Shown here piece after piece: positions 2,389 through 35,365 of a stretch of 64,000 nucleotides of DNA. The stretch spans positions 372,001 to 436,000 of the forward strand of contig JAJNNC010000001.1 in NCBI GenBank assembly GCA_021730635.1. The letters are read 5' to 3'. Source of the DNA: Catalimonadaceae bacterium JC749. Its GTDB lineage: Bacteria; Bacteroidota; Bacteroidia; Cytophagales; Cyclobacteriaceae. The notes beneath the pieces are model-generated. The model did not search any database, was not told the origin of the DNA, and worked only from the letters and a program-made list of their open reading frames with translations. The translations under genes were made by a program, and so were the position numbers. Within the stretch, counting starts at the first letter, position 1. Every line of letters begins with the position of its first letter.

Positions 2389-3441
2389 TTGAAACAAATC
2401 CTGATCAATGGTAGCTTTTTAGCACAGCCCCGCACCGGAGTACAACGATTCGCTCTTGAAATTAGTAAAGCCCTGAGAGCCATTCAGCCCGATATCCTCA
2501 TCGCTGTACCTAAAAATACTATGAAATCTGAAATTTGGCAGGATTTAGCGCCGATAACGATCGGACGTTTTAGTGGCCATTTATGGGAACAAATTGATTT
2601 GCCGCTTTATGCTTGGCAACAAAAGGCGCTGCTACTCAATCTGGATATGCGAGGTCCCCTGGCCTACCCTAATAAAATGATTACTATTCATGATCTAAAC
2701 TTTTTACATAATCCAGCTTGGGTAACCCCTAAGTTTTATTATTTTTATAAGCTTCTGGTTAGTGCTGGTGCAAAAACCAGCAGGAAAATATGCACAGTGA
2801 GCCAGTTTTCTAAGTATGAAATAACTCGCTTTCTCCAAACAGATCCCGAAAAAATAGCAGTAATTTATAACGCTGTTTCTGATCGAATCAAAAATATACA
2901 TACTGTTGCCGAAAAAGTGATTTCGTCAGATTATATTCTTTCAGTAGCCTCTACAGATCCCCGAAAAAATCTCTCATGTTTGATAGAGGCCTTTCATCAG
3001 ATATCAAATCAAAACATAAAACTGGTACTGGTGGGTTTATCTCATAAAAAAAATGCACTATCCATCAGCAATGAAAATATTATTTTTCTAGGCCATATCG
3101 ATGACAAAACCTTGGTAAATTTATATCGGCATGCCCGGCTATTTGTATACCCTTCACTCTACGAAGGGTTTGGGATACCGCCACTAGAAGCCATGTATCA
3201 TGGTTGCCCGGTAGTTACCTCTCATACAACAAGTTTACCTGAGATTTGCGGTGATGCTGCTTGGTATGTAGATCCTGAAAGTGCTACCAGTATAGCAGAA
3301 GGCATACAATACCTATTGACGGACACGGCAAAGAGAAATGAACTTATTATGAAGGGCAAACAACAGGTAAAGCGATTTGATTGGAACCAATCGGCTGAAA
3401 AATTATTAAGTATTATAAAAACAATGAATGACAAGTACTAA
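2389..3441 (+). CDS. GT4-family glycosyltransferase (mannosyltransferase-like)
   Basis: A 350-residue GT-B glycosyltransferase. The start is TTG at 2389: there is a stop at 2362-2364 and no ATG, GTG or other TTG between it and the conserved N-terminus MKQILINGSFLAQPRTGVQR. That N-terminus, with TGVQRFA and a later TIHDLNFL, is typical of the MtfB/WbaZ-like branch of GT4. The C-terminal motif is PSLYEGFGIPPLEAM near residues 254-268. It is closely related in layout to the glycosyltransferase at 5968, sharing FSK-E-I-R and DPEKI segments, so the two look like paralogues in one locus. It would add a sugar, perhaps mannose, to the repeat unit (inference). Confidence 0.87.
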   Translation: MKQILINGSFLAQPRTGVQRFALEISKALRAIQPDILIAVPKNTMKSEIWQDLAPITIGRFSGHLWEQIDLPLYAWQQKALLLNLDMRGPLAYPNKMITIHDLNFLHNPAWVTPKFYYFYKLLVSAGAKTSRKICTVSQFSKYEITRFLQTDPEKIAVIYNAVSDRIKNIHTVAEKVISSDYILSVASTDPRKNLSCLIEAFHQISNQNIKLVLVGLSHKKNALSISNENIIFLGHIDDKTLVNLYRHARLFVYPSLYEGFGIPPLEAMYHGCPVVTSHTTSLPEICGDAAWYVDPESATSIAEGIQYLLTDTAKRNELIMKGKQQVKRFDWNQSAEKLLSIIKTMNDKY

Positions 3442-3595
3442 AGTTATCTGCTTTTTTCCTGATTTGAAGTTAAGACTATAAAACAAAAACTAGATAAGAA
3501 CATGAAATCAAGGCTCTCACTTATGATAAGTAACCTTTTGTGTAACCTTCTGTACTAACGCTACAACTGACTACTGTTGACCTTATTGTGTACGT

Positions 3596-4705
3596 ATGAA
3601 AGTAGCCTTACTTGCTAACGATCGCCCTTCCTACTATAAACCTATGGCAGTAGCTCTGGCTAAGATGCTATCTACCCTTGGTATGTCAGCTACCATCTTT
3701 TATGAAGGGACTGCCATCATGAATGAGCCTTACCCCACTGTAACTTACCGAACCAAAATTGTTGTTAAACAGATACTGAACCTGCTGGGAAAGAAGTATT
3801 ATATTCCACCTATTGCTTCTATTGAAACACTTCTGAAAAAACTGACGGGGTATGATGCCATCGTAGTGGTAGGGCATATGCCCACTACTTTTGCCAAAGC
3901 CAACTATACAGGTGTAGATATTCTGAAGAAAAAACTGAATGTGCCGATCATCAATTATGATCTGTGTTTTCTGGCTACCCATGGCATGTGGGTGAAACTC
4001 CTGAAGAAAGATCCTAAGTATGGAGGCTTTGCAGGTCTAAACCGGTTCGATTACTACATGGCAGTGTCTATCACTACAGAATATCCACTGAAAAAGGACG
4101 TTATGTTTCCGGTATCCTGTATTGGTGGTGATTTTCAGGCAGAAAATTTGTTTCCTGAGCAAGAGGAGTTTATGGCACTGGTAGACTTTGAAAGAGAAAG
4201 TCATCCAAAAGAACGGGCATTGCAATTACAGGCACTGAAAGAGACAGATACAAAGTATTATATACTACACGGTACCTATTCGGCGGACGAGATTAGAAAT
4301 ATATACCGTAAAAGCGCAATTTATTTTTTAGCCCACCGGGAAAGTTTCGGGTTACCCATAGTTGAACTGCAACACTGTGGTTGTCTTATTTTTACTCCCT
4401 ACAAGCGATGGGCTCCTGCTCACTACCTCTTTAAGTCGCCTTATGAACGAGGAGAAGGACAGTTGGGTACCAACTTTAAGGTATATCGTAACGACCTTAC
4501 CTTACTGAAAAGTATGATTCAGGAAGTGAAAACACAGTATAATGCTCATAAGGTAGTAGAATCGTTTAAAAAGGAGTATCCTATGTTTTATACAGGCAAC
4601 TTAGCCGCTTTGTCTGAAGTTATGAATAAAATACAGCAAGGTGTTATTCATGCTCAATCACATAATGATTACAAGGATCTGGACCAAGAAATAATCCTGG
4701 ACTAA
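3596..4705 (+). CDS. divergent glycosyltransferase-like protein of the polysaccharide locus
   Basis: A 369-residue protein that I cannot place in a named family. The N-terminus MKVALLANDRPSYYKPMAVAL looks like the first beta strand and loop of a GT-B enzyme. The later segment YFLAHRESFGLPIVELQHCG near residues 243-262 matches the GT4 donor-binding pattern E/S-FGLPIVE, with the expected Glu. The central part carries several basic clusters and no predicted membrane helix. A 154-nt gap with short direct repeats of TGTAACCTT precedes it, so it may have its own promoter. The polymerase gene starts 33 nt downstream. Most likely it is another glycosyltransferase of the repeat unit; a non-catalytic polysaccharide protein is the alternative. 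Confidence 0.6.
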   Translation: MKVALLANDRPSYYKPMAVALAKMLSTLGMSATIFYEGTAIMNEPYPTVTYRTKIVVKQILNLLGKKYYIPPIASIETLLKKLTGYDAIVVVGHMPTTFAKANYTGVDILKKKLNVPIINYDLCFLATHGMWVKLLKKDPKYGGFAGLNRFDYYMAVSITTEYPLKKDVMFPVSCIGGDFQAENLFPEQEEFMALVDFERESHPKERALQLQALKETDTKYYILHGTYSADEIRNIYRKSAIYFLAHRESFGLPIVELQHCGCLIFTPYKRWAPAHYLFKSPYERGEGQLGTNFKVYRNDLTLLKSMIQEVKTQYNAHKVVESFKKEYPMFYTGNLAALSEVMNKIQQGVIHAQSHNDYKDLDQEIILD

Positions 4706-33790: not shown

Positions 33791-35365
33791 TTATTGCCCA
33801 GTCTGAACGTATTGTTTCAAATCTGAGATACGTTCTATCTTTAGTCTCTTCGCCTGATTTTCTCTCATCATCATGGCAGTAGTATTGTTAAAACCTAAGG
33901 GCTGCAGCCATTCCAGTTCAAATCTTTTTTCAGACATTCTCTTCACATATTCATACACTTTCTGCTTATCACGAATCAGACTATCTATTACATCTTTCTC
34001 CGGCTGGAGTAATACCAATAACCCCGTGCCGGTATATTCCGGATAAATATCCACTGCATCTGTTTTCATAGCATCCATCAATAATTTGGTACCACCAAAA
34101 CCCAATCTTAACTCAACCGTCAAAGGGCTGTACGCTTCAATCAAAGCGGCAAACATTTCAGCCAGGATAAAATTCTCTGTAAAACTTTTGGATCCTATTA
34201 CGATAGCTGGTTCACCTGTTCGTTTGGGAATGGTTTTCATGCCTGATTTTTCCAAAAATGCCCTGGCTACTTCTCTTGAAGATCTTTTTTCCTGATCCAC
34301 CTCAAAGTTCATCTGCATCATAGCTTCTTCAGAAATTTTGCCTGCCAGCCGGCTGAAGATGTTTCTGAGCTGTGGGTATTGCTCCAGTATCTCCTTTCTT
34401 GCCAATGGTGCTGCATAATAGGGAGGGTAGTAATTTTTATCATCTTTCAATACCCGAAGATCATACGCTTTAATTCTACCATCCGTGGAAAAGCCACTAA
34501 TCACATCTACTTTTTTGTTTCGCAATGCCTCATACATTAATCCTATTTCCATCTCTCTGACTGGCAGTGTAAAACCGTAAGCTTTGGTAAAGCCCGGATA
34601 TCCATCTTCCCTTTCCATGAATTCTGAATTGAAGCCTGCTGTCAGCAATTTTTTGCTATCCATCGTCATATTTTCCACCAAGGCATATCCTACCAACAGG
34701 ACACCTGTCAAAGTGGCGATCACCAGCAAAGGTTTCAGCAGAACCTGTATGTACTTCTGAAAAATACTCAGAATGGCATCCAGCAAGATAGCCAGCAGAG
34801 AAGCAGGAATGGCACCTGCCAGAATCATGTTAACATTATTGACAGCTATTCCGCGAAAAATAAATTCTCCCAATCCTCCGGCAGCGATAAGGGCACACAA
34901 GGTAGCCACACCGATGTTGATAACCATGGCAGTCCGGATACCGGCAAAAATGACAGGGGTAGCCAGAGGAAGTTCTACCTTTTTTAGAATTTGACTGCTG
35001 GACATGCCTAGTCCTCTGGCTGCTTCGATCACTGCCGGATCAACACCTTCAATGCCCGTATAGGTATTTCGTACAATAGGAAGCAAGGCGTATAAGAAAA
35101 GAGCGATAATGGCTGGTGTAACTCCTATGCCAAAAACAGGAAGCAGAAAACCCAATAGGGCGATGCTTGGTACTGTCTGGATGATGTTGACAAACCCTAA
35201 TACTGACCGGGAGAGGTATTGATAACGGGTCAGTAAGATACCGGCTGCAATGCCTACTACAATGGCAATCAGCAAGGCTATTGAAGTAATCCATATATGC
35301 TCATAGGTTTGCTCCAGTATTTCCTGCCGATGTTCCAGTACAAATGAAATAAACCCTTTCAGCAA
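33791..35365 (-). CDS. osmolyte-type ABC permease fused to a circularly permuted substrate-binding domain
   Basis: A 524-residue fusion. Residues 1-225 form an OpuCB/ProW-like permease with about six helices and the EAA loop VIEAARGLGMSSSQILKKVE. The rest is an OpuCC/EgtUC-like binding domain, but in swapped order. Residues about 240-380 (GFNSEFMEREDGYPG, VDVISGFSTDGRIKAYDL, NYYPPYYAAPL) match the second half of the standard protein. Residues about 385-524 (AIVIGSKSFTENFILAEM, VDIYPEYTGTGL, LGFNNTTAMMMRE) match its first half. Glycine betaine, choline or ergothioneine are plausible ligands by family only. The start is TTG. It follows pnp by 72 nt, and no ATPase gene lies nearby, so the ATP-binding partner must be elsewhere. 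Confidence 0.85.
   Translation of the reverse strand: MLKGFISFVLEHRQEILEQTYEHIWITSIALLIAIVVGIAAGILLTRYQYLSRSVLGFVNIIQTVPSIALLGFLLPVFGIGVTPAIIALFLYALLPIVRNTYTGIEGVDPAVIEAARGLGMSSSQILKKVELPLATPVIFAGIRTAMVINIGVATLCALIAAGGLGEFIFRGIAVNNVNMILAGAIPASLLAILLDAILSIFQKYIQVLLKPLLVIATLTGVLLVGYALVENMTMDSKKLLTAGFNSEFMEREDGYPGFTKAYGFTLPVREMEIGLMYEALRNKKVDVISGFSTDGRIKAYDLRVLKDDKNYYPPYYAAPLARKEILEQYPQLRNIFSRLAGKISEEAMMQMNFEVDQEKRSSREVARAFLEKSGMKTIPKRTGEPAIVIGSKSFTENFILAEMFAALIEAYSPLTVELRLGFGGTKLLMDAMKTDAVDIYPEYTGTGLLVLLQPEKDVIDSLIRDKQKVYEYVKRMSEKRFELEWLQPLGFNNTTAMMMRENQAKRLKIERISDLKQYVQTGQ

Follow-up and report, generated by a model that had tools for sequence, protein, structure and literature searches.

EgtUBC, the ergothioneine importer of Streptococcus pneumoniae, consists of a permease fused to a substrate-binding domain of subcluster F-III together with a separate ATPase, and the excerpted text of PMC9732360 places its homologues nearly exclusively in Firmicutes. 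The same excerpt assigns residues 233-331 and 445-506 of the binding part, EgtUC, to lobe D1 and residues 341-432 to lobe D2, and holds Gly244 and Phe293 to be ergothioneine-specific; the Helicobacter pylori transporter is given a lower affinity, such homologues seeming not to conserve the key determinants (PMC9732360). The one paper on such permutation found in the open-licence literature, PMC2395249, reports it for glycine-betaine-binding proteins that include 2B4L. In our alignments this protein, Bacillus subtilis OpuAC, has two halves that match the binding domain of Lactococcus lactis OpuA crosswise, and its chain ends with NSIEDL. The first-pass annotation likewise states that permutation is known among some OpuA-type binding proteins. 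We take this OpuAC to be a stand-alone lipoprotein.

Here we describe a gene from a 64,000-nucleotide stretch of the genome of Catalimonadaceae bacterium JC749 (hereafter the window) whose product joins a permease to a circularly permuted binding domain of the OpuCC/EgtU type. We write P for the permease and A and B for the usual first and second halves of the binding domain; the window protein thus has the order P-B-A. The overall explanation that we favor, with a probability of roughly 0.6, is a permuted type I ABC importer with ergothioneine or hercynine as its ligand and a P-A-B ancestor.

A permease fused to a circularly permuted binding domain

The window protein (Table 1) has a permease domain of the BPD_transp_1 family (90.9 bits against a Pfam cut-off of 26.4), followed by a match to PF04069 (OpuAC) at 191.5 bits against a gathering cut-off of 21.2. 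The latter falls into two crossed stretches, with profile positions 115-257 preceding positions 2-113, which lie on the C-terminal part. Since the two halves jointly cover nearly the whole of the 257-position profile, neither is missing and their order is swapped. In phmmer searches, residues ~380-523 align with the N-terminal halves, and residues ~239-376 with the C-terminal halves, of OpuCC, ProX and EgtUC-type chains, and a profile search of the permuted domain returned two stretches crossed in like manner. As controls, the EgtU-type fusion of Enterococcus faecalis (L042), which has the standard P-A-B order unlike the window protein, was matched in one collinear piece (residues 235-500 by PF04069 1-257), as was the A-B-P protein L035 (residues 42-295 by 2-257). 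This collinear order is absent from the window protein; PF04069 itself does not demand it, B. subtilis OpuAC also being crossed.

Table 1. Features of the permuted permease fusion and its candidate partner (window positions unless another contig is given)
Feature	Position	Strand	Basis
Whole P-B-A gene, coding for 524 aa and starting with TTG at 35365	33791..35365	-	Open frame, Pfam
Permease domain (residues 1-230) with its final membrane helix at the hydropathy peak 212-230	34676..35365	-	PF00528 at 35-206, hydropathy
Segment B, residues 241-376, usual second half: most of lobe D2 and C-terminal part of D1	34238..34645	-	PF04069 115-257 on 241-373
Linker, residues 377-386, old C-terminus to old N-terminus	34208..34237	-	Alignments
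Segment A, residues 387-524, usual first half, with the N-terminal part of D1, the first strand of the hinge and the opening helix of D2; ends after ISDL motif	33794..34207	-	PF04069 2-113, phmmer
Candidate partner ATPase, a solitary gene on a different contig from that of the permease	G000 C2:143653-144531; L054 6576-7640 = G000 C2:143575-144639		

The same P-B-A order recurs in 25 further genes. The architecture is therefore certain: this is a conserved fusion of a permease and an OpuCC/EgtU-type binding domain that is circularly permuted, with its new termini after the ISDL helix. The first-pass annotation had read this from the order of motifs, with the second half following the membrane domain, the first half coming last and the protein ending at ISDL, and its reading of a permuted OpuCC-type (EgtU-like) domain fused to a permease is borne out by the crosswise alignments, Pfam, the 25 relatives and the binding-domain tree. 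By sequence, the best solved relatives of the domain are of the OpuBC/OpuCC, ProX (Archaeoglobus fulgidus) and EgtUC kinds, EgtUC being among the best profile matches with a solved structure (E 1e-82). B. subtilis OpuAC shares the B-A order and very nearly the break, which falls at PF04069 position 114 as against 115 in the window protein, after the ISDL (SIEDL) helix; it is of the OpuA type, unlike the window protein, to which it is 14% identical.

In alignments, the window domain starts just past the end of the ISDL helix of standard proteins and ends with that helix. When the lobe limits given in the excerpt of PMC9732360 are carried over by alignment, the new termini would lie inside lobe D2, ~25 residues beyond the first strand of the hinge. 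Lobe D1 would then run without a break, and the chain would pass from the membrane into D2 instead of D1. The last membrane helix of the permease domain presumably forms the exit of the chain from the membrane, its direction being taken by analogy from EgtUBC (excerpt of PMC9732360). This refines the suggestion of the first-pass annotation that the permutation may place the hinge differently next to the membrane: the link probably enters the other lobe, and the termini appear to lie within D2, away from the hinge.

Structure prediction was built with five similar sequences only and reached a pLDDT of 57 for the domain and 51 for the full-length protein; given such weak models, we use fold matches as supporting evidence only. 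Lobe D1 is good and D2 poor in the domain model, and the joined D1 (domain residues ~81-210), as its better-predicted part, agrees with a continuous D1 as far as a low-confidence model goes. The best Foldseek matches of this weak model were OpuAC, across most of its length, and B. subtilis OpuAC is its best fold match (Z 14.3 over 193 residues, 5.1 A). Matches to the OpuBC, OpuCC, ProX and EgtU chains extended over only about half of the model and also ranked below unrelated peptide-binding proteins.

Binding pocket, candidate partner ATPase and ergothioneine genes

We compared 13 EgtUC contact residues by alignment to the E. faecalis fusion, the S. pneumoniae numbers being placed on the motifs by us. 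Lys242, Thr274, Thr296, Asn339 and Tyr443 are kept in all 26 P-B-A proteins. Neither Gly244 nor Phe293 occurs in any of the 26: the former position holds Phe (22/26) or Gln (4/26) and the latter Tyr throughout, while Arg379 is replaced by Met in 22. The four-tyrosine cage of Archaeoglobus ProX, for which the residue facts come from the excerpt of PMC9732360, is kept in 21 of the 26, and the Phe found at the Gly244 position in 22 is that of ProX. Because H. pylori EgtU was solved with ergothioneine bound (title of 8DP7) although such homologues seem not to conserve the key determinants, the missing Gly244 and Phe293 do not exclude ergothioneine. Five of the 26 proteins, namely the window protein and L001-L004 (the window clade), have Thr for Tyr341 and Phe for Tyr419, a pair found among P-B-A proteins only there; Phe at 419 is also seen in some P-A-B proteins.

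In 21 of the 26 P-B-A loci, a gene for an ABC ATPase is found close upstream and on the same strand, a candidate counterpart of the separate ATPase of EgtUBC; at L014 the distance is ~0.9 kb, with a small intervening ORF. The two that were examined had TIGR01186 (proV) as their best NCBIfam model, both below its cut-off (309 bits against 326.6 for L048). The window clade has no ATPase in the flanks examined and one unlinked orthologue in each of its five genomes; the one in the genome of the window (Table 1) is the likely partner of the window permease. Upstream of the window gene are genes for a purine nucleoside phosphorylase (PNP) and an ornithine aminotransferase, both named by reading the sequence, an order largely kept across the clade. 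At L002, an opposite-strand gene that looks major-facilitator-like by eye (2443-3729, minus strand) stands between the PNP and P-B-A genes. A scan for promoters and terminators gave counts near chance.

EgtD was matched in all 22 P-B-A genomes listed from the 395 sampled genomes of the phylum of the window, 17 of them over the model cut-off and five (G190, G138, G379, G214, G261) just under it at E < 1e-83, and in the four close-relative P-B-A genomes (one over the cut-off, all E < 1e-82). Across the whole sample, 136 of the 395 genomes have any EgtD match and 107 have one over the cut-off. After discounting eight weak matches (G024, G044, G063, G095, G098, G124, G346, G354), EgtD occurs in 106 of 373 genomes without P-B-A against 22 of 22 with it (Fisher p 5e-12, with kinship ignored and the P-B-A set a lower bound). 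Moreover, EgtD lies at most 6 kb from the P-B-A gene in 15 of the 22 genomes, spread over four coded families; it was not found near that gene in the other seven (G000, G128 with a contig of only 13.6 kb, G387, G249, G166, G072, G371). EgtB stands beside the P-B-A gene, over the TIGR03440 cut-off, at L015, L018 and L026, and also at the A-B-P locus L033, and six sampled genomes (G306, G271, G116, G353, G224, G280) have EgtD no more than 5 kb from an A-B-P-ordered match. The genome of the window has its own egtB-egtD pair, both over the cut-offs and unlinked to the P-B-A gene. At two loci (L060 12322-12813, L061 3391-3882), a small 164-aa gene adjoins the EgtD-like gene near the P-B-A gene.

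Proposed function and candidate ligands

In the mechanism we propose, two P-B-A copies and two copies of the ProV-like ATPase would assemble into a type I ABC importer, with the binding domain on the outer side of the inner membrane and lobe D2 as its tether; there it would close on a trimethylammonium compound and hand it to the channel. That the system is an ABC importer for a compound of this class is likely. For the family as a whole, the odds that this compound is ergothioneine or its precursor hercynine appear about even; one consideration against ergothioneine import is that it would bring little evident benefit to cells with their own ergothioneine synthesis. The odds are lower for the window protein itself, and the replacement of Tyr341 by Thr and Tyr419 by Phe means that the ligand of its clade may differ.

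That the window clade took on a different ligand once its gene had left the egt operon is a minority reading, but one to be taken seriously. The restriction of Thr341 and Phe419 to this clade among the 26 proteins speaks for it, as do the unlinked ATPase in all five genomes and the unlinked egtBD in that of the window; on the other hand, all five genomes retain EgtD and one orthologous ATPase, and the Phe at 419 is still aromatic and shared with some P-A-B proteins. We consider it rather unlikely that the ligand of the same permuted importer is a general osmoprotectant, for example glycine betaine, proline betaine or choline. The match of EgtD in 26 of 26 P-B-A genomes, and its nearness in 15 of 22, argues against such a ligand, even though the ProX cage and the ProX Phe are widely kept in the family and the window gene adjoins the PNP and ornithine aminotransferase genes, with no egt genes there.

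Under the favored reading of an ergothioneine or hercynine importer, these would be Bacteroidota transporters linked to ergothioneine metabolism, beyond the Firmicutes distribution of EgtU homologues in the excerpt of PMC9732360. Among the open-licence papers listed for ergothioneine in Bacteroidetes/Bacteroidota, no title or abstract opening describes an importer of this kind. A more speculative extension, doubtful as a whole, is that ergothioneine-making Bacteroidota have a dedicated importer for re-uptake or for hercynine salvage, tethered by D2 through the permutation, and that this connectivity was favored by folding or docking rather than reached by neutral drift, because the same loop would have been cut independently several times in OpuA-type and OpuCC-type proteins.

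Distribution and origin of the permuted order

The closest relatives of the window protein are four genes of Cyclobacteriaceae/Flammeovirgaceae, 67-70% identical to it over nearly the whole length; it is from these named relatives that we assign the window to the Bacteroidota. Full-length matches were found in at least 22 of the 395 sampled genomes of the phylum, that of the window included; the true number may be higher, since scoring was limited to three candidates per genome. One P-B-A gene (L027 1495-2910, minus strand, genome G080) has an internal TAA and is a pseudogene or reflects a sequencing error.

Other orders prevail elsewhere. Eight fetched Bacteroidota relatives (L030-L037) are A-B-P: they resemble the P-B-A proteins in phylum and domain families but differ in that the binding domain has the standard order and is N-terminal to the permease. 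Among 16 fusions fetched from other phyla, 14 are P-A-B, with five from plasmid records (Bacillota, Fusobacteriota, Cyanobacteriota), six from the Actinomycetota search and three from the Pseudomonadota search; Firmicutes were covered through plasmid records alone. The other two (L045, L110) are A-B-P; a Gemmatirosa (Gemmatimonadota) plasmid carries one, and a genome from the Pseudomonadota search the other. Thus, P-B-A and A-B-P within one phylum and P-A-B elsewhere form a natural comparison set for effects of tether and lobe connectivity on docking and transport. Contiguous B-A matches occur in at least nine of 158 matching Actinomycetota genomes (296 searched), two of which (G454, G663) were judged from coordinates alone, and in none of 49 matching Pseudomonadota genomes (279 searched). 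All seven fetched actinobacterial B-A proteins (L062, L069, L072, L078, L087-L089) are stand-alone. Apart from L069, they break at nearly the same point as P-B-A but, unlike it, are unfused and lie elsewhere in the tree.

In a tree of 101 binding domains, the 26 P-B-A domains form one branch (SH-aLRT 95), which lies inside the set of all fusions (support 98) and contains no actinobacterial permuted protein. At least four changes of order are required on this tree, a number that is soft in its exact value as the tree is quick and has several long branches. Left out as repeats of included genes were L008, L038, L039, L056-L062, L064, L066 and L068, L062 being represented as L005; also left out were L065/L067 (one further Nocardioides protein of standard order) and L082 (halves in two frames). 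In a permease tree, with 104 of 110 segments kept by length, P-B-A falls on one side of a branch with a support of only 78. The probable starting point of the permutation is a P-A-B protein, in which a tandem duplication of the binding domain would have given P-A-B-A-B, and the loss of the outer halves P-B-A; no P-A-B-A-B intermediate was seen among the fetched loci.

A single old permutation common to P-B-A, the actinobacterial stand-alone proteins and B. subtilis OpuAC would explain why the breakpoint is nearly the same in all that were read except L069, but it is quite improbable: an AU test rejected one clade for the 33 permuted rows tested (p 0.0001, on the quick, long-branched tree, with OpuAC outside it), and the permuted-domain profile finds L. 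lactis OpuA at E 0.05 only, with OpuAC unlisted up to E 1. Since OpuAC and P-B-A are so far apart in sequence, they seem to have reached the shared breakpoint separately. That the swapped order is an artefact of misassembly or a broken gene is refuted by the relatives with the same order, 26 genes from many genomes and families in all, the other 25 sharing 48-70% identity with the window protein along almost the full length, with frames open in all but one.

These comparisons indicate repeated circular permutation at one loop in the OpuAC superfamily. In the actinobacterial protein L069 (1399-2379, minus strand, genome G590), the break comes ~30 residues later than in the others, giving the order B', A and then the start of B; the position of the cut can therefore vary.
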